DNA of 31,809 nt from positions 1 through 31,809 of IMG/VR virus record IMGVR_UViG_3300017697_000059, one strand, 5' to 3'. Shown piece after piece: positions 10,593 through 31,582 of this stretch. Position 1 is the first letter of the stretch. Each line of letters begins with the position of its first letter. The notes beneath the pieces are model-generated. The model worked only from the letters and a program-made list of their open reading frames with translations, ran no database searches and had not been told where the DNA came from. Both the position numbers and the translations under genes were made by a program. This stretch comes from a virus.

Positions 10593-13500
10593 TGGCTAGT
10601 GCACAACAAATAGAACAACTTCAATCTCAATTAGATTCTGGTGAAATTGATCCAAGACAATTAGATCAAGAACAACAAGATAGTTTAAAAGAATTAATTA
10701 ATAGAGGTGTTTTAACAGCTCCTGCTGGTGGGATAGCCCGTATGTCTGCTGACAGAGATATAGGTGAAACAGGTATTATACAACAAGGTAAAGATGCCAA
10801 TCAATTTGGAGGATTGAGCACACCAGTTGGTAAAGTAATGACAGAAAGATCCTCTTATGAAATGGTTGGTGATGTAATAGGTTCTTTTATACCTTATATA
10901 AATAACAGAAGAGCTATTGTAAAAGATGTAGTTAAAGGAATTTCTTCTACAGATTCAAAAGGAAATGTAGTACAACAAGCTTATACAAAACCAACTGGCA
11001 GAAATGCTTTACGTTTGGATAAATTTGATAAAGTCAATTCAAAACTTGCTGATGCTTTAGGTAAAGTTATTGGAAGAAGAGCAGGAATTGTTGGCAAAGC
11101 TTTTGTAAGAACAGCTTCTTTTTTAGAACAAACTGCAAAAAGGGGTACACAGTTAGTAAAAGCTGAAAGACAAGTTTTAAAAACAGGTGATGTCGGTAGA
11201 AGTATGTTAAGAGCTGGAGCTAGAACAGAAGCACAATCTTTATTAGGAGGATCAGCGGGTGCTGCAACTGGTTCTGCTTTGTATGATTTAGCTAATTATA
11301 ATGAGGACTTAACTGCAAACCTTACTATGGATGTAGCAGATTTAACAGAAGAGGGTATTAATTCAAATCCCTTTCCAATGCGTTTATTATCTCACTCAAT
11401 GATAGCAGCAAAAAACTCTTTACAATGGGGTGTTTTAGGAACTGGTATTGGGTATGCCGCAGGAAGAGCTTTTGGTAAAGGTAAAAAAGCCTTATTAGGA
11501 TTAAATACAGATTCTGCTGTTCAAATGGCTAAAATGTCAGCAGAACAAGGAGTTCCTTTATCTCCAACTGCTCTTGCAAGTGAAGGTTTTGGTGGTTTTT
11601 TATCAAGAAACTTTTTTAAGATATTTGGTGTGACACCTTATGTAGGAGGAGCGGGTACAAAAAAACTTAGAGAAACTGTTGCTGAACAAATGTTTCCAAG
11701 ATATTTAAATATGGCATCCTCTTTAAACCCTAGTACTGCTGTTGCTGGTATCGTATCAGAGTCTGGTCTAGGAGCAGAAGGTATATCTTTAATGACTAAA
11801 AACTATCATATGAATAGTGAGATTATAAATGCAAATTATGATATGCTTTTAAAAAATTCAGTTGCGATGGATCATCCACCTATTATTAAAAATACTAATT
11901 TAAAAAAAGCACTTAGCACAATGGGTGATGAAATAAAAGGAATGGATGGTTCTCAATTTAAAGCTTTTGCCGAACAGCAATTAGATGCAGCACCTAGTAA
12001 AGCAGTAAAAGATAGGTTAACTAATTTAATGATGATTAATAGTTTAAGTGAACTTACTGATCGAGCAAGTATGTCCATATACGATGCTGCTTTATATAAA
12101 AGATTTATATATGATACGATGGGAGACCCCAAAAATATAAAAAGTGTAGAAATGCAACAGCAGGGAAGAGTTATTTTAGATGCTATGGAAAAAGATTTAA
12201 GTGCAGCTGAAATGCTTGGTAAATTAGATTTAAATGATCCAGATGTAGCTAAATTTGTTAATAGTATGAATAAAGGTTCTGCTGAAGCAAATGAGATTGC
12301 AGCTTTAGCCTCATCAAAAAAATTAGCACAAGAACTTAGAAAAACTAATCAAATATATATGCAATTAGTAAACAGTGGTATGTTAGGAATGGGCAAAGCT
12401 CAAAAAGAAGGTGTTTTAGCTAATGCTTTAAATAATCCAGAAATGGTAAACAGCCAAGAAATATTTAATACTATATTTAATAACGCAATAAAAAACCAAA
12501 ATCCTCAAGCTTTAAAACAAATGAAAAAATTATTAGGTGTAGGTAGTGGTGAGTATAATGATTACGCTACTACTTTTATGGGTAAAATGGGTACAAGGTT
12601 TGTTTTTGATGCTTTTACTTCATCTTTTAATCAAGCTGCTAAAAAAGGATCTGATGTTTTTGATCCAGCTGTTGTTTTTAGAGAAGATTTATCTAAAGCT
12701 GATAAAATTATACCAGATATAATTAATAGCAAACCAGAATATCGAGCTTTATTTCCAAATAAAGAGTTAAATGTTACTTCTAATTATGTGGATGCAGATT
12801 TATTTAACAAATTAGAAAAAATTAGAAAAATTAGTCCAGAAGATGCAAAAAGAATAGAAGACTCTTTAAGTTCAAGTGTTTCAGAAATAAAAATTGATCC
12901 AAAAAATATTGATAGTTTTGATATTTCTAGGTTTAGAAAAAACTTAGGTATTGACACTGCTAATGGTAGAGCAACTTTAACAGAATTGTTTGGAGCAGAA
13001 CACACAAAAAATATAGTGGATTTAACAGATGTTTTAACTCGTTCTGTTGATATAGGTATTACAGACCCTTCTGCTTTTTTATTAAGAAAACTTACTTTAT
13101 CTGGAGGAGCAATAGGTGCTACTGGTGTTTTAGGTGGAGTTGCTATGTTTGGTGTAGGTGGTGGTTTACTTGGTGCTATACTACCAGCAGTTGCAGCTAG
13201 ATATTATGGTAAATGGATTGCTAACCCATCCACTACTAAAAAAGCTCTAGATTTATATTCCAAAGAAGAAAGAAGAGCTTTATTACAAGGAGATGTAGCT
13301 GGCCCAATAAAAACTTTTCCTTTTTCTGGTGGGAAAGAAGGAGATTTAGGTGGTTTTTTTGATCCAACTGAACCTTTAGGAAAATTTTTAGGACCCACAA
13401 GAACAAGAAACTTAACTATATTTTTAAATTCTGTAGTAGGTGAGTCTAAAGATAGTCCAAGTTTTAATGCTGATAACATTACATATGATGATATACAAAA

Positions 13501-14766: not shown

Positions 14767-14778
14767 ATATAAATAAAT

Positions 14779-14849
14779 CCGTTTAACTCATATGAGTCGG
14801 AAGTAGGTTTAAACCGAAGAAACGCATTATCTTGAAGGAGGTGATGTGT
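14779..14849 (+). promoter_or_regulatory. Structured leader: two small hairpins and a perfect Shine-Dalgarno
   Basis: Hairpin 1 pairs CCG (14779-14781) with CGG (14798-14800) and ACTC (14786-14789) with GAGT (14794-14797) around an ATAT loop. Hairpin 2 is the palindrome GGTTTAAACC (14806-14815). The CGG of hairpin 1 can instead pair with CCG at 14814-14816, so two alternative folds compete. After GAAGAAACGC comes AAGGAGGTGAT (14835-14845), a full match to the 16S anti-Shine-Dalgarno and the strongest ribosome site noticed in the window. Confidence 0.5.
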
Positions 14850-14936: not shown

Positions 14937-15452
14937 ATGATGAAAAGTAAGGGTTACAGTAAAGGTGGTGCTCGTATGATGAAAGCCAGAGGTGGTAAAA
15001 TGGCTAAAGGATATTCTAAAGGCGGAGCTAGAATGATGAAAGCTATGGGTGGTAAAATGGCTAAAGGGTATGCAGTAGGTGGTGTGCTTACTGGTGCTAG
15101 AGTTGCTATAAAAGGTGTATCAGCATTAAGAGCTGCTGCTAAAAAATTAGGATATGGAGTTTCCAAATTAAAAACTTCTAGACCTGGTACAAAAATGACA
15201 AAAGAGTTGCAACAAAAAAAAGTACCAAGTCCAGTAAAAATGACACCTAAGAAAAAACCAGGTTATGGTCAAGGATTTTTAACTGGTGCAGCTTATACAG
15301 GTGCAGCTACAGTGGGTGCTCCTGCTTTGTTTAATAAAAAGAAAAAGAAAAAAACATCAGCATTTGGTACAGCATTTAGTAAAGCTAGAAAATCTGGTAA
15401 AAAAACTTTTACTTACCAGGGTAAAAAATATACAACAAAGGTAAAAAAATAA
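14937..15452 (+). CDS. Lys/Gly-rich repeat protein, 171 aa
   Basis: AAGGAG eight bases upstream sets the start. The N-terminus holds two near-identical 19-residue repeats, KGYSKGGARMMKARGGKMA and the same with M for R (residues 5-23 and 24-42), and a third partial copy KGYAVGG. A hydrophobic helix follows (VLTGARVAIKGVSALRAAAKK), then a very basic C-terminal half with a Gly/Ala hydrophobic stretch (GFLTGAAYTGAATVGAPALF) between Lys clusters. Lys/Gly repeats of this type are frequent in marine phages with no known role. The charge suggests nucleic-acid or membrane binding. It may be made in large amounts, given the leader upstream. Confidence 0.65.
   Translation: MMKSKGYSKGGARMMKARGGKMAKGYSKGGARMMKAMGGKMAKGYAVGGVLTGARVAIKGVSALRAAAKKLGYGVSKLKTSRPGTKMTKELQQKKVPSPVKMTPKKKPGYGQGFLTGAAYTGAATVGAPALFNKKKKKKTSAFGTAFSKARKSGKKTFTYQGKKYTTKVKK
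14949..15062 (+). repeat. 57-base tandem repeat, two copies in frame
   Basis: Two consecutive 57-base units (14949-15005 and 15006-15062) encode the 19-residue repeat of the Lys/Gly-rich protein. Bases differ mainly at third positions while the peptide is nearly unchanged, so the repeat appears to be kept by selection on the protein. Confidence 0.8.
15200..15224 (+). repeat. 25-base direct repeat, copy 2
   Basis: Exact copy of 14879-14903, inside the Lys/Gly-rich gene. Confidence 0.85.
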
Positions 15453-18332: not shown

Positions 18333-18348
18333 ATTAACGGAGGTAAAC

Positions 18349-18936
18349 ATGAATCAAGAAGAAGTAAAACTAGAAGTTAATATTGGAGATGACGATTTAA
18401 AAGATTTAAAGTATTTAATTGAATCAATGGTGAAGAATGAAAAAACTATTAAAGATTTAGAATCAGCTCTCTCTGAATTAAAGCAACAACAGCGACAATT
18501 ATCTGAAGTAGATGTACCCACTAAAATGAAAGATATGGGTATGCAAGAGTTTGTCACTGATAAAGGAGTGAAGGTTAAAGTCAAAAGTTTTTACACAGGC
18601 TATATACCTACTTTAAAAGCTAGTGCTAAAAGTCCAGAACTAGCTGAACGTAGGGAAGCTTGTTTAAAGTATTTAAGTGAAAACGGACACGACTCCTTAA
18701 TCAAGAACGAGTTGGCTATAACATTTTCTAAAGGTCAAGACAACGAAGCTAAGAGTGTCAAGGCTGACTTAGAGAATAAAGGCTACCCCGTAACATTAGA
18801 TCCTTCAGTAAATGCAGCCACTTTAAAAGCACATATTAATGTGATTAAAAAAGATAATGGTGAATTTAATGATGAGTTATTTAATGTTTTTTATAAAACC
18901 GAAACTAAATTAACGAAAGGAAAGAATGATGAGTAA
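18349..18936 (+). CDS. Coiled-coil protein of unknown function, 195 aa
   Basis: GGAGG seven bases upstream gives a clear start. The N-terminal 55 residues are an acidic coiled coil (DDDLKDLKYLIESMVKNEKT, then LESALSELKQQQRQLSEVD). A mixed alpha/beta part follows (KGVKVKVKSFYTGYIPTLKA, GHDSLIKNELAITFSKG) and a C-terminal NAATLKAHINVIKKDNGEF. Proteins of this kind precede SSB-like and primase genes in some marine phages, but I cannot name the family. It is the first gene of the rightward replication operon and overlaps the SSB-like gene by 11 bases, so a role at the replication fork is likely by context. Confidence 0.6.
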   Translation: MNQEEVKLEVNIGDDDLKDLKYLIESMVKNEKTIKDLESALSELKQQQRQLSEVDVPTKMKDMGMQEFVTDKGVKVKVKSFYTGYIPTLKASAKSPELAERREACLKYLSENGHDSLIKNELAITFSKGQDNEAKSVKADLENKGYPVTLDPSVNAATLKAHINVIKKDNGEFNDELFNVFYKTETKLTKGKNDE

Positions 18937-19714: not shown

Positions 19715-21297
19715 TGCAAGAACAATTGTTTAAACTTTTTGCTTCAGGCGAGAAGTCATTTGTAAAGCTTTCCCTTACGGGGGAAAGCGATACAAGTGGC
19801 AAGAAGGAAGCTAAATATATCACGATACACGAGCCAGTTACTTCTGATATTTGGAAAGACCATCTAGATGGTAAGTATGGTATAGGTCTAAGACCAGAGT
19901 TCGGGGATGAGTGTATGTGGAGTTGTATAGATTTAGATCCTGTTGATTACAAAAATTATTCTGCTCAAAAGTATGTAGATATTATTAATAAATATAATTT
20001 ACCTTTTGTGCCTATTTTATCTAAGTCTGGCGGTCTACACTTTTTTGTGTTTTTTACCGAAGCTATAAAGATAGACAAAGTAAAAGAAAAGTTACAAGAA
20101 TTTAATGAACAATATTTTATGGCTAATGAAATTTACCCATGTAATAAAACTATAAACATGCCTTATTTTAACATGAACGCTACTATGGAATTTGCTTACA
20201 ATAGTAATGGTACTCCAGTATTAGTTGGTCAATTTTTAGATATAGCTAAGAGCAAAGTAATTACACCAAAAGATTTTTTGAATTATAAAGTACAAGATCA
20301 TGAAGTAGAAAGAGATTGGAAACACTATCCTCCTTGCGTACAAAAACTAGTACAAGATGGTTGGGCTGGTAAAAATAGACATCAGTATTTATATAACGTC
20401 ACAGTTTTAGAGATTAAAAAAAGAGTTGGTATCAACTACGTTGATTTAGATGAAATCATGCAAGATAGAAATAGAACTATTTTTACTACACCTTTACCAC
20501 CTACTGAAGTATCTCAAATAGCAAAAAGTGTTCACAAAGATGGTTATGGTTATCAATGTCCCCCAAAGCATACTGAGTACCAACCCATATGTAATATGGA
20601 GATGTGTAAGACTCGTAAACTTGGTAGAGGAGAAGAAACTCCAGCAATTATAGATAAGTTTACAAATATAACTTACGTTCAAGATACTAAAAATGTATGG
20701 TTTGAATTTGATTATGAAGGACATCACATTACTGTAACTCCAGATGATATGAAGGACGAAAAAAGTTGGAGAGTTAAATTATTAAGGTACAGAGTATTTT
20801 GGTTGACCTTACCCAAGAACAGAAAAGGACCAAGTATGTATGAACTTTTAATGAAAGCTATAGTAGAAAAATCAGTAGAAAGTACAGATCATAAGTATGA
20901 GGACAGTTTAGAAGAAGAAAGGTACGAAGTATTAAAGAAGTTTTTTGAAAGTCATATAGAACAAGATAGGTTTGAAAAACTTAAAGATGGTTATGTGGTT
21001 CTAGATAGTAATACAAATATATGTTACTTTAAGAAGATAACCCTAGCTAGTTTTTTACAGAAGAGTGGTACAAAAAGTTTTAGCAATCCTATGGCAGCAT
21101 TAAATTTATTAGATTGTAAGAGAATTGATTATCATGAAGGTGAAAAAAACGTATGGACTGTAGAGATGCCAGAGTTTGTTAAACATAAAACAGTGAAGAA
21201 AAAAGAAAATAAAAAAGAAATGAGTGAGATGGATGACGAATACCACACAAAATTCAGAGCTTCAAAAGCACAAAGCTCTATACAAAAAAACGATTAA
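19714..21297 (+). CDS. Archaeo-eukaryotic-type primase (PrimPol-like)
   Basis: The 527-aa product has the AEP catalytic signature: D73-x-D75 in WSCIDLDPVDY, and S105-x-x-x-H109 in LSKSGGLHFFVFF, with an NTP-binding-like YGIGLRPEFGDE before it. After the catalytic core, WAGKNRHQYLYNVTVLEIKKRVG (about 217-239) resembles a PriCT-type helical region. A probable zinc site uses C282, H286, C293 and C298 (YQCPPKHTEYQPICNMEMCK) as seen near the middle of phage primases. It would make primers for the family A polymerase encoded downstream. The C-terminus is Lys/Glu-rich. The helicase gene begins inside its last 65 bases in another frame. Confidence 0.8.
   Translation: MQEQLFKLFASGEKSFVKLSLTGESDTSGKKEAKYITIHEPVTSDIWKDHLDGKYGIGLRPEFGDECMWSCIDLDPVDYKNYSAQKYVDIINKYNLPFVPILSKSGGLHFFVFFTEAIKIDKVKEKLQEFNEQYFMANEIYPCNKTINMPYFNMNATMEFAYNSNGTPVLVGQFLDIAKSKVITPKDFLNYKVQDHEVERDWKHYPPCVQKLVQDGWAGKNRHQYLYNVTVLEIKKRVGINYVDLDEIMQDRNRTIFTTPLPPTEVSQIAKSVHKDGYGYQCPPKHTEYQPICNMEMCKTRKLGRGEETPAIIDKFTNITYVQDTKNVWFEFDYEGHHITVTPDDMKDEKSWRVKLLRYRVFWLTLPKNRKGPSMYELLMKAIVEKSVESTDHKYEDSLEEERYEVLKKFFESHIEQDRFEKLKDGYVVLDSNTNICYFKKITLASFLQKSGTKSFSNPMAALNLLDCKRIDYHEGEKNVWTVEMPEFVKHKTVKKKENKKEMSEMDDEYHTKFRASKAQSSIQKND
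19821..19837 (+). repeat. CACGATACACGAGCCAG, dispersed 17-mer family
   Basis: One mismatch from the copy at 4811-4827. It lies in the primase gene at residues 37-41 (TIHEP), before the catalytic motifs. Confidence 0.6.
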
Positions 21298-28885: not shown

Positions 28886-29104
28886 TTGTCTGATTATACT
28901 AAAAGGATGACTAAAAAGTTTAAATGGGAAGATACTATTTTTGGAGAAGAGATAATAGATCCTAAACACATGACTCCAGATGAGAGACATGCTTTTATTG
29001 ACGGAATTTTTGAAGATTATACATATTATGCGAAAAAGAGTTCAATACATGCTCTTCAATATGGTAAACTTTTAAGTGCGTTAGTAAAAACTTATGGCCA
29101 CTAA
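28886..29104 (+). CDS. Hypothetical protein, 72 aa
   Basis: The product reads MSDYTKRMTKKFKWEDTIFG then EEIIDPKHMTPDERHAFIDG and YAKKSSIHALQYGKLLSALV. I choose TTG 28886, one base after the preceding stop, with GGTGAT seven bases upstream; ATG 28907 has AAAGG too close to serve. The protein is two or three helices with many charged residues. No family is recognised. The stop overlaps the next gene by 11 bases. Confidence 0.55.
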   Translation: MSDYTKRMTKKFKWEDTIFGEEIIDPKHMTPDERHAFIDGIFEDYTYYAKKSSIHALQYGKLLSALVKTYGH

Positions 29105-29579
29105 ACAACAATTTCAACCACCTTCTAACCATTTTTTAAAAACATTAGGTTATAGATTTTCAAGAATTTTATTAAACTATGATAATATGTATTCTGAAAA
29201 TTATTTATGGAGAGCTGTTGTAGTAAATGCTTTAGAGGACACTATGATAAGAAGAGACGATAGAAAATCATCTACTTTAAAAACTAATGCTCATAATTGG
29301 GTTTTAGGTAATAGTTTTGGTTATGATAGAATATGTCATTGGGCTATGTTAGATCCAGAACAGGTAAGTAATGCTTACAAAGAAGCTCTTAAAAAAGGTA
29401 ATATTATATTTACTAATAAACATTTACACTGGCACCTTTACAATACTTTATCTAAAAAACATAAAAATTGTTTAGATATAAGAATTAAAAATAATATTAA
29501 AAAAGAGATGCGTTTTTTACGTCAAAAGGTTGTAAGTGAAAAAGGTGAGTTAATTGAAAATGTTTGTAGTGTTTTATAA
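29094..29579 (+). CDS. Hypothetical protein next to terminase, 161 aa
   Basis: The product begins MATKQQFQPPSNHFLKTLGY and has a helical core: LWRAVVVNALEDTMIRRDDR, then AHNWVLGNSFGYDRICHWAM followed by LDPEQVSNAYKEALKKGNII. The pattern of a buried Trp-x2-Val-x2-Ala-x-x-D helix followed by A-x-x-W and C-x-x-A-x-LDP-x-x-V recalls small phage proteins encoded beside terminase genes, some proposed as late regulators, but I cannot name the family. The second half is basic. It is followed by a perfect 10-bp inverted repeat. Confidence 0.6.
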   Translation: MATKQQFQPPSNHFLKTLGYRFSRILLNYDNMYSENYLWRAVVVNALEDTMIRRDDRKSSTLKTNAHNWVLGNSFGYDRICHWAMLDPEQVSNAYKEALKKGNIIFTNKHLHWHLYNTLSKKHKNCLDIRIKNNIKKEMRFLRQKVVSEKGELIENVCSVL

Positions 29580-29610
29580 AAAAAGAGTGATGAGGGGAAA
29601 CTCATCACTC
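29578..29610 (-). terminator. Rho-independent terminator on the minus strand
   Basis: GAGTGATGAG and CTCATCACTC form a perfect 10-bp stem with a six-base loop, and on the minus strand it is followed by TTTTTTT. On the plus strand the hairpin is preceded by A7 and has no T run, so it should stop leftward rather than rightward transcription. Confidence 0.7.
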
Positions 29611-29648
29611 AACTAACGGATTTGAAGGATTATATAAATACAATCTTC
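29578..29648 (-). ncRNA. Candidate minus-strand small RNA, about 70 nt
   Basis: A transcript from the minus promoter at 29683-29655 would start near 29648 and fold into two hairpins. The first pairs TGAAG-ATT (29649-29642) with AAT-C-CTTCA (29631-29623). The second is a perfect 10-bp stem GAGTGATGAG / CTCATCACTC (29610-29585) with a TTTCCC loop. Seven Ts follow (29584-29578). Promoter, compact structure and Rho-independent terminator are all present in about 105 bases with no protein frame. Its target is unknown. Confidence 0.45.
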
Positions 29649-29654
29649 ATTATT

Positions 29655-29683
29655 AAAATATGCAATTATAAAGGATAAGTCAA
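29655..29683 (-). promoter_or_regulatory. Minus-strand promoter TTGACT-N17-TATTTT
   Basis: On the minus strand TTGACT (29683-29678, five of six consensus bases) is followed after 17 bases by TATTTT (29660-29655). The only minus-strand product it could make before the terminator is the candidate small RNA. Confidence 0.4.
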
Positions 29684-29800
29684 ATGAAATTTAAAGAACA
29701 ATTAAAAATTACTATTTTTCTACTATATAGTTCTATACAAACTTTTTTTAAAAACATAAGTGTAAAAATAGCAAAAGTTTTGGGAAAATGGGAAAAATAG
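29684..29800 (+). CDS. 38-aa ORF before terminase
   Basis: AAGGA lies eight bases before the ATG. The product begins MKFKEQLKITIFLLYSSIQT and ends with KVLGKWEK, giving a basic N-terminus, a short hydrophobic stretch and a basic tail. It starts one base beyond the minus-strand promoter, so the region between 29580 and 29927 is not empty. No homology is recognised. Low complexity and base bias mean chance cannot be excluded, but the ribosome site is good. Confidence 0.4.
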   Translation: MKFKEQLKITIFLLYSSIQTFFKNISVKIAKVLGKWEK

Positions 29801-29869
29801 CAGAAACACTAGTGTTACAGAGAAAAAGTTTTAGGAAAGTTTTAGGAAAATTCCTAAAGTTTTGGGAAA
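29775..29869 (+). repeat. AAGTTTTRGGAAA iterons with an inverted repeat
   Basis: Four copies of AAGTTTTRGGAAA lie at 29775-29787, 29826-29838, 29837-29849 and 29857-29869; the middle two are 11 bp apart, one helical turn. Between copies 3 and 4 lies the perfect inverted repeat TTTAGGAA-AA-TTCCTAAA (29841-29858). The cluster ends 58 bases before the terminase small subunit gene, a typical position for a packaging recognition site; an origin or operator is also possible. Confidence 0.55.
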
Positions 29870-29919
29870 AGAGAGGACCGCAATGCTGGAATTTATTTTT
29901 TAATAATAATTACCTATAG
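29788..29919 (+). CDS. 43-aa ORF across the iterons
   Basis: The frame overlaps the 38-aa ORF by 13 bases and ends nine bases before the terminase small subunit. The product begins MGKIAETLVLQRKSFRKVLG, is very basic, and repeats the KVLGK wording found at the end of the 38-aa product because both cover iteron copies. There is no proper ribosome site. It may be only a by-product of the repeats. Confidence 0.25.
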   Translation: MGKIAETLVLQRKSFRKVLGKFLKFWEKRGPQCWNLFFNNNYL

Positions 29920-29927
29920 AGATATAT

Positions 29928-30467
29928 ATGCCACAAGTAAGTAAACAGATGAGAACTATTAAAGATTTAACAACCAAACAAAAAACCTATATTGATATAT
30001 TAGTTGCTAATTGGGGCAACATTACAAAAGTAGATGCTTTATTACAAGCTGGATACAAAAGTAAAAGTAAAGATGCAGCAATGGTCATGGCTAGTAAATT
30101 AACTAACCAAGATTTAAATCCACACGTTTGTAGATATCTAGAATATAGATTAAGTAAAGAACAAGAAAAATATGAAAAAGATAAATTAAGAAGATATAAA
30201 ACTTTTGAAAGGTTACGTGATGGAGCAGAACAAAAAGGTCAATACACTGGAGCAATTAATGCAGAGTTTAGATCGGGTCAATTAGCTGGACAATTTGTTG
30301 ATAAAAAAGAAGTTTTACACTCAACTTTAGAGGGTATGAGTAGGGAACAATTAGAAAATAGACTAAAAGAATTAGAAAATAAGATAAATGATGGGGGTAC
30401 AATCATTGATATTACGCCAAGTAAAAAAGAAACCAAAAAGGTTAACCGAAAAAAAAATTTGGAATAA
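29928..30467 (+). CDS. terS: Terminase small subunit
   Basis: The 179-aa product has the small-terminase helix-turn-helix layout: LTTKQKTYIDILVANWGNIT (14-33), KVDALLQAGYKSKSKDAAMV, then MASKLTNQDLNPHVCRYLEY, followed by a coiled coil (about 72-100, LSKEQEKYEKDKLRRYKTFE) and a flexible basic C-terminus. The AGYKSK-x2-AA and LNPHV pattern is the one used to recognise the family. It binds the packaging site and recruits the large subunit, which is not in this window. The ribosome site is weak (AGAGAT). Iterons lie just upstream. It overlaps the nuclease gene at its 3' end. Confidence 0.75.
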   Translation: MPQVSKQMRTIKDLTTKQKTYIDILVANWGNITKVDALLQAGYKSKSKDAAMVMASKLTNQDLNPHVCRYLEYRLSKEQEKYEKDKLRRYKTFERLRDGAEQKGQYTGAINAEFRSGQLAGQFVDKKEVLHSTLEGMSREQLENRLKELENKINDGGTIIDITPSKKETKKVNRKKNLE

Positions 30468-30855
30468 ACTTAACCTTTTTCAAAAGCAAAACGATTACGC
30501 TCATTTTATGAGAATAGAAAGCTCCACAATCAACGGAATACCTGATGTTTATTGTGTTTATGAAGGATATAATTTTTGGTTAGAATTAAAAGCAAACCAA
30601 GCTAAGAATAGTGGGTTGTCAAAGTATCAAACTGTGTGGCATTTAAAACATAAGAGAGCTGGTGGTATTTGTTTCATTATGAACTGGCCCCTCTTGCATG
30701 AACCTCCTAAAATTCTCGAAGTCCGTGAGCCCGGGATCGTAGTTCCCGTTCCCGTAGTTCCCGTTCCCGTTCTCACAATTTCAAATTGGATCTACCTGGA
30801 TGGCCAGCAGCCAGCAACTGGCCCTGCGGGAAACGGCAGTTCCCGTTCCCGTTAA
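30388..30855 (+). CDS. PD-(D/E)XK nuclease (VRR-NUC-like) with repeat-derived tail
   Basis: The catalytic region is compact: E44 in MRIESSTING, D53 in GIPDVYCVYEG, E66-x-K68 in FWLELKANQ, and Q81 and W84 in LSKYQTVWHLKHK. This matches VRR-NUC or Holliday-junction-resolvase-like phage nucleases. The start could be ATG 30388 or 30391 or TTG 30406; all overlap the terminase gene. The natural domain seems to end near FIMNWPLLHEPPKILEV; the last 40 or so residues (PVPVVPVPV, then GNGSSRSR) are encoded by GC-rich GTTCCCGTTCCCGT repeats and look like read-through into repeat DNA. It may trim or resolve DNA for packaging. Confidence 0.75.
   Translation: MMGVQSLILRQVKKKPKRLTEKKIWNKLNLFQKQNDYAHFMRIESSTINGIPDVYCVYEGYNFWLELKANQAKNSGLSKYQTVWHLKHKRAGGICFIMNWPLLHEPPKILEVREPGIVVPVPVVPVPVLTISNWIYLDGQQPATGPAGNGSSRSR
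30739..30853 (+). repeat. GTTCCCGTTCCCGT repeats in GC-rich DNA, first cluster
   Basis: A 15-bp unit GTAGTTCCCGTTCCC is repeated in tandem at 30739-30753 and 30754-30768. The core GTTCCCGTTCCCGTT occurs exactly at 30757-30771 and 30839-30853, and with one change at 30742-30756. Between them lies TGGCCAG ... CTGGCC (30801-30823), a 6-bp inverted repeat. The surrounding 350 bases are much richer in GC than the rest of the window. Confidence 0.8.
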
Positions 30856-31009: not shown

Positions 31010-31037
31010 TAACCCATAACTAACGGAGAATATAAAA

Positions 31038-31319
31038 ATGATACAAACACTATGCGAAACACAATTTTTAGAACATGTGCGTCAGCACTCACGCTGGAAG
31101 CAGTTCAGCTACGAGGCGTGGCAGTTAATTTACGAATGGGAGACAGAGATCAACCCAAAGGTAGAATATGACCCTATAGGCTTTTGTTGCGACTATTCAG
31201 AATACGAGAGCTTTAAGGACCTTCAAGAAGAGCACGAAGTTGAGTCGTTGGATGACCTAAGGGGCAAGACTTGGGTAGGCGATCTTCCAAAGGGCCGTCT
31301 ATTAATTAGGAATTATTAA
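31038..31319 (+). CDS. Small acidic early-type protein, 93 aa
   Basis: GGAG nine bases upstream fixes the start. The product begins MIQTLCETQFLEHVRQHSRW and contains FSYEAWQLIYEWETEINPKV and PIGFCCDYSEYESFKDLQEE. FSYEA-x2-LIYE followed by FCCDYSEYES belongs to a small acidic protein family I recall from many phages, function unknown. By my count it has 19 Asp/Glu against about 10 Lys/Arg, so a DNA-mimic or anti-host role is conceivable but not shown. The gene is visibly richer in GC than the structural genes. A terminator and a host-like promoter precede it. Confidence 0.65.
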   Translation: MIQTLCETQFLEHVRQHSRWKQFSYEAWQLIYEWETEINPKVEYDPIGFCCDYSEYESFKDLQEEHEVESLDDLRGKTWVGDLPKGRLLIRNY

Positions 31320-31320
31320 T

Positions 31321-31428
31321 ATGATATTATTTCTATGTGGGCTCTTCGCCTCTTACATGGTGGCACCTAAGTTGGTGTCACTTGTAGGTTTTGTTCTTTT
31401 AATCGTGGTTGTGGGTTTAATATTTTAA
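31321..31428 (+). CDS. 35-aa membrane microprotein
   Basis: AGGA nine bases before the ATG and a one-base gap after the preceding stop support translation. The product reads MILFLCGLFASYMVAPKLVS then LVGFVLLIVVVGLIF, two short hydrophobic stretches around Pro-Lys, enough for one hairpin or a single long membrane helix. Phages often encode such tiny membrane proteins early (superinfection exclusion, membrane disturbance) or for lysis. Function unknown. Confidence 0.6.
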   Translation: MILFLCGLFASYMVAPKLVSLVGFVLLIVVVGLIF

Positions 31429-31434
31429 AAGCCC

Positions 31435-31449
31435 GTTCCCGTTCCCGTT
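31435..31449 (+). repeat. GTTCCCGTTCCCGTT repeat, second cluster
   Basis: Exact copy of the 15-base core at 30757 and 30839, immediately after the 35-aa gene. GC-rich DNA with CTGGC words continues to about 31525; read in reverse it contains TGGCCAGCGCAGCCAGC, close to TGGCCAGCAGCCAGCA at 30801-30816. Confidence 0.8.
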
Positions 31450-31555: not shown

Positions 31556-31582
31556 TAACGGATAACTAACGGAGGAAAAAAA

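Follow-up and report, generated by a model that had tools for sequence, protein, structure and literature searches.

The stretch of DNA analysed here (31,809 nucleotides of a virus record, hereafter the window) probably encodes a trans-acting small RNA (sRNA) of about 70 nt that would repress a small regulon of phage genes by covering their Shine-Dalgarno (SD) sequences. The anatomy of the locus, its complementarity to several SDs and the joint change of both sides of that complementarity from phage to phage can be read directly from the sequences. The genes of the window are those of a phage (virion structural protein, primase, DNA polymerase, methyltransferase, PAPS reductase and glycosyltransferase among them) and its source appears to be an ocean virus of SAR11-type bacteria. 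On the plus strand, the divergent neighbour of the sRNA locus is the gene for the terminase small subunit, terS (29928-30467; phrog_641, E 0.0022), and the closest cultured relative found, Pelagibacter phage HTVC023P, has a TerS with 57% identity. Relatives of the window were gathered by a terS search; the same search in bacterial genomes found none, and hence no prophage forms were seen. Three spaced AAAGTTTTGGGAAAA-like repeats, kept in relatives, lie between the sRNA locus and terS (29765-29870, plus strand) and are candidates for terminase-binding sites (cos/pac) or for an origin.

The initial annotation described, on the minus strand, a TTGACT-N17-TATTTT promoter, two hairpins and a run of seven Ts, and all of these elements lie where it placed them. 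The putative sigma-70-type promoter occupies positions 29683 to 29655 (-35 box TTGACT, 29683-29678; -10 box TATTTT, 29660-29655); it is followed by a 5' hairpin (hairpin A, 29649-29623; one bulge, one G-U pair), by an unpaired linker of 12 nt, AAUCCGUUAGUU (29622-29611), which forms a seed complementary to SD regions, and by a predicted intrinsic terminator (29610-29578) that would form the 3' end of the sRNA. The terminator, with its perfect 10-bp stem and six-base loop (29610-29585) and its T7 tract (29584-29578), is as first described; hairpin A, for which a stem of 8 bp with one bulge had been proposed, does fold with a single bulge, but its stem is longer, with extra G-U and A-U pairs. 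The terminator hairpin also faces leftward, as had been stated: T7 is on the minus side, the plus side carries no T tract, and no minus-strand protein gene that would need a terminator is present to the right. The fold of 29655-29578 has an energy of -22.3 kcal/mol (z -6.9; none of 200 shuffles is as good), and a perfect 10-bp stem with a loop of 3-8 nt followed by at least six Ts occurs a single time in the window, whereas none of 100 dinucleotide-preserving shuffles contains one. The promoter match, 9/12, is by itself not above chance (79 such sites in the window versus 86 expected), and it is the recurrence of the TTGAC box, in place, in diverged relatives that supports it. An alternative minus-strand promoter, TTAATA-N16-TATAAT (29656-29629; 10/12), from which the RNA would start at the linker, was rejected; it is kept only in the closest relatives (L028 and L030). 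With its predicted promoter and intrinsic terminator, the locus has the form of a free-standing gene. The best reading is, as the initial annotation had it, a dedicated RNA of about 70 nt that is read from the minus strand, away from terS. It is further supported by relatives that keep promoter, linker and terminator hairpin in place; from this we infer that the locus is transcribed.

The opposite strand of the promoter region holds a short plus-strand reading frame (29684-29800; ATG 29684, possible RBS AAAGGATAAGTCAAATG) that is conserved in the closest relatives L001 and L002; as an explanation of the region, a small gene starting there was set aside, as it does not overlap the linker. Rfam covariance models gave no match to 29578-29683, either at the gathering score or at E values up to 10, and no match at the gathering score among 16 related loci. 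Elsewhere in the window, a glutamine riboswitch (RF01739, 59.8 bits; 14778-14828, plus strand) lies upstream of a 171-aa gene (14937-15452) with no PHROG match.

The linker was overlooked in the initial annotation, which proposed no function for the RNA. It is the perfect complement of AACUAACGGA, a sequence that occurs only twice more in the window, each time as the SD of one of the genes that closely follow terS (ATG 31038 and 31583). The reverse complement of the linker, AACTAACGGA, is found in three copies, one in the RNA and two at SDs, versus 0.03 expected. Predicted target site 1 (AACUAACGGAG, 31018-31028, plus strand) is the SD of a 93-aa gene of unknown function (gene A, 31038-31319; phrog_9974, E 1.7e-6), whose orthologues in relatives also carry the cognate SD. 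Predicted target site 2 (AACUAACGGAG, 31564-31574, plus strand) is the SD of the gene with ATG 31583, which extends past the end of the window. Cofolding gains 14.2 kcal/mol at each of the two sites and leaves both sRNA hairpins formed. Because a perfect TTGACA-N16-TATAAT promoter (12/12 consensus match) lies just upstream of site 2, the mRNA of this target should start near the complementary site. A possible third site (18333-18342, plus strand; 10 bp with one G-U pair, gain 11.9 kcal/mol) is the SD of the gene 18349-18936, which precedes the primase gene; the orthologue in G005 has AATGGAGG in place of AACGGAGG of the window, in step with the G005 linker, and in the G004 orthologue the SD does not follow the linker change. 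The main predicted targets are small genes downstream of terS that lie 1.4-2.0 kb from the sRNA locus on the plus strand and match it over only about 10 bp, which is not the arrangement of a cis-antisense RNA. Between the small genes after terS are G+C-rich CCCGTTCCCGTTCCCG hexamer repeats (30734-30853 and 31427-31449), in a genome that is otherwise AT-rich; GGGAACGGGAAC repeats are present in the relative L038 too.

From phage to phage the linker sequence varies, and the SDs of orthologous targets vary in step with it (AACUAACGGA, CCAAACGGAG, ACCAAUGGAG, UUCAACAAAGG and AUCAACAUUGGG are examples). Cognate sequences are ACCAATGGAG in L040 and CACTAACGGA in L041 (four SD sites each), ACCAAACGGAG in L031 (three or four), AACTAACGGA in L028 (three), TTAAACGGAG in L032 and L033 (two and three), CAACAAAGG in L046 (two), ATCAACATTGGG in L068 (three) and AACGAAAGG in L078 (seven); in L042, pairing of the linker CUUCGUUUAAG with CUUAAACGGAG includes one G-U pair. 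In every target copy the distance from the SD core to the start codon is normal. For the orthologous gene whose product begins MGFDLYG (gene C), most phages have an SD that matches their own linker; aactaacggag, ccaaacggagg, cttaaacggagg, accaatggagg, caacaaaggag and atcaacattgggag are all found at this gene, each with a matching linker. In permutation tests, which ignore relatedness among the phages and use linkers delimited by eye, a pooled scan of 19 loci of relatives gave 45 cognate sites of at least 9 nt versus a permuted mean of 17 and a maximum of 41 (0 of 20,000 permutations reach 45), the duplex energy at gene C was -15.5 kcal/mol for cognate and -10.6 kcal/mol for non-cognate pairs (0/20,000), and genes A and B gave weaker results, still below 0.01 (21/20,000 and 113/20,000, respectively). 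The match of gene B to a Crp-type HTH lies below the threshold. Exceptions and weak cases at gene C are L030, L034, L036 and L037; cognate pairs are also weak for gene B of L030 and in L034 and L037, and L089 shows no cognate pair within the 3.5 kb of sequence examined. A genome-wide search for 9-mers common to SDs and non-coding sites was abandoned as too noisy in AT-rich genomes, and 10-mers and coevolution were used instead. Linker and targets have thus changed together, and the linker looks in this respect like the seed of a trans-encoded sRNA.

The layout of the RNA is conserved as well. In many relative contigs a TTGAC box and a spacer are present at the same place on the minus strand, followed by an anti-SD linker and a terminator-like hairpin; another hairpin often precedes the linker. 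The TTGAC box is unchanged in all 13 aligned relatives and usually lies 17 nt before a TAnnTT-like hexamer. In hairpin A, L028 and L030 have an A-U pair where the window has the G-U pair, and some relatives that have diverged further have a weaker hairpin or lack it. Of 22 RNAs, 21 have a significant hairpin 3' of the linker. Most RNAs have a tract of five or more Ts within 72 nt, in some cases inside the hairpin loop and not after the stem; the tract is missing or short in L031, L032, L040, L041 and L042. Stem sequences vary widely yet remain paired: among ten stems compared in register, nine pair positions have 3-5 pair types each, with no mismatch. The comparison was made by hand with arms chosen by their pairing, and is so supportive of the structure and not independent of it. 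In 9 of 13 cases the minus-strand fold is more stable than the plus-strand fold, by up to 14 kcal/mol. RNAalifold predicted no pairs on a MAFFT alignment of 13 RNAs because the hairpins differ too much in length and sequence to be aligned. In a second, more diverged group (L077, L078, L089, L098, L104 and L116), a linker of the type CCUUUCGUU is likewise followed by a terminator-like hairpin.

Joint change of several SDs would also be produced if the linker were one copy of an RBS or leader module that is repeated on the plus strand and that recombination keeps uniform within each genome; the copy next to the hairpins would then be vestigial, and the minus strand would give no functional RNA. 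Phage leaders are often duplicated, and the two target leaders of the window are 83% alike over 29 nt. However, the copy between the hairpins has no plus-strand promoter, and mostly no credible plus-strand start codon comes after it. In phage after phage this copy is flanked by structured arms and accompanied, on the minus strand, by a TTGAC-N17 box and often by a T tract; moreover, the arms diverge yet still pair. We give this explanation only a small chance of being correct.

A trans-acting regulator of phage mRNAs is most likely because the linker both matches and coevolves with phage SDs. Host RNA polymerase would start at TTGACT-N17-TATTTT and stop at the strong intrinsic terminator, yielding an RNA in which the short anti-SD linker stays exposed between two hairpins. 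The linker would form about 10 bp with the 5' leader and SD of several mRNAs from phage genes downstream of terS, and possibly also with the SD of the gene ahead of the primase gene. It would cover the SD and the few nucleotides before it, close to where the mRNA is predicted to start. Pairing over an SD normally represses, and from established knowledge of sRNAs the likely consequence is a block of translation initiation, ribosome loading being prevented and translation of the targets lowered. Since the sRNA and target 2 of the window both have host-type promoters, the RNA would be expected to accumulate, and its accumulation probably shuts off or caps early genes. Hfq dependence is common, but not universal, among trans-encoded base-pairing sRNAs; the T7 tail of the sRNA is compatible with it, and Hfq may have a part in the circuit. 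Alternatively, the RNA may be real and act mainly on host mRNAs, as several phage sRNAs do (PreS on dnaN, DicF on ftsZ; PMC12197685), or may activate its targets by 5'-end protection, which would fit with pairing close to the predicted mRNA 5' end. We regard this as improbable, as it is phage SDs that the linker tracks, and repression is the outcome expected of pairing that covers an SD.

A further alternative, which would leave the layout unexplained, is a DNA operator, a stoperator-like asymmetric site for a phage-variable regulator just downstream of several promoters, of which the copy in the sRNA gene would be another instance. Operators coevolve with their repressors too, and -10-like boxes stand a short way upstream of the target copies (for target 2, TATAAT by about 8 nt), which places these copies where a repressor could act. 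The normal placement of the SD core relative to the start codon argues against such a site, as do the orientation of the sRNA-gene copy, which is opposite relative to its own promoter and between two hairpins, and the retention of G-U compatible differences (CUUCGUUUAAG versus CUUAAACGGAG in L042), which RNA pairing tolerates; together these points make an operator quite improbable. Least probable of all, and very much so, is that the hairpin is a mere terminator or RNA 3'-end stabiliser for the plus-strand gene 29094-29579, which ends where the sRNA terminator begins: the hairpin does start 5 nt after the stop codon, as hairpins directly follow the stop in relatives, but the T tract is on the wrong side for this, and the linker, its coevolution with SDs and the minus-strand promoter box would be left unexplained.

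Among cultured pelagiphages, HTVC023P has a candidate locus after gp20, on the minus strand from about 10,900 to 10,800, with a linker, UUUUUUGUUAGUU, and a terminator hairpin with T10. The linker complement, AACTAACAAA, recurs upstream of four genes, namely gp23 (the gene C orthologue), gp24 and two others. This linker is AU-rich, a complementarity of 9 bp is also reached by 23 of 80 other genes, and the HTVC023P version of the sRNA is plausible but weaker than the case of the window. The gene just upstream of the candidate, gp20 (10921-11319, minus strand; MN698239.1), has an end that reads as winged-helix-like by eye, and the HTVC023P sRNA could derive from the 3' end of gp20. In HTVC027P (MN698241.1), TACCTTTCT lies beside a strong hairpin at 20269-20330, between gp39 and the large terminase gene, and its complement, AGAAAGGTA, is present at three SDs in the genome; this motif is possibly a divergent version, although a weak and doubtful candidate. 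The published infection RNA-seq of a phage of the HTVC023P type used HTVC027P (PMC12753301), and because the candidate in that phage is doubtful, this transcriptome does not settle the question of the sRNA.

If the linker and its targets do form a circuit, then a post-transcriptional circuit can be recognised from sequence alone, with linker-target coevolution as the evidence. The finding names candidate regulated genes and would explain the SD extension common to one group of small genes, and its signature, several SDs of one genome matched by the linker of an intergenic RNA, could guide the search for such RNAs in other phages. Tentatively, and with considerable doubt, each phage lineage may have a private translation code, in which early genes share a lineage-specific SD extension read by one sRNA. 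The whole early set would then be silenced at once, and only in its own lineage. Because the linker matches its own lineage only, a resident phage could also use its RNA to switch off the early genes of a sister phage on entry, and would in this way confer superinfection immunity.

No description of a small RNA in pelagiphages came up in a literature search, and the systems most similar to the one proposed here are from other phages and bacteria. The C4 RNA of P1 and P7 is a structured antisense RNA in which short unpaired segments cover a phage SD, but it arises by processing of the leader of the operon that is its sole target, whereas the predicted sRNA would be encoded by a separate gene, with promoter and terminator, and would have several targets. 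In bacterial anti-SD sRNAs with a CU-rich motif, such as the RNAIII loops of staphylococci, an unpaired segment pairs with SDs; there the motif is fixed and generic, whereas here the flanking seed is private to each phage lineage. Like sar and sas of P22 and OOP and aQ of lambda, the sRNA would be a short phage RNA that base-pairs with phage mRNA, and sar in particular blocks translation initiation of ant (PMC12197685). Those RNAs are encoded in cis, each opposite a single target to which it is perfectly complementary over a long stretch; in contrast, a single locus here matches, over about 10 bp, several separate SDs located kilobases away. Short seed pairing with mRNAs encoded elsewhere is shared with VpdS of VP882, PreS of lambda and DicF of Qin, all three of which are described as Hfq-associated; the targets of PreS and DicF are host genes, and those of VpdS are RNAs of both host and phage (PMC12197685). 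Unlike in these cases, the predicted regulon here consists of phage genes, and coevolution of linker and SDs is visible across phages. What is new here is that a trans-acting RNA would combine a regulon of phage genes with a seed private to the lineage.
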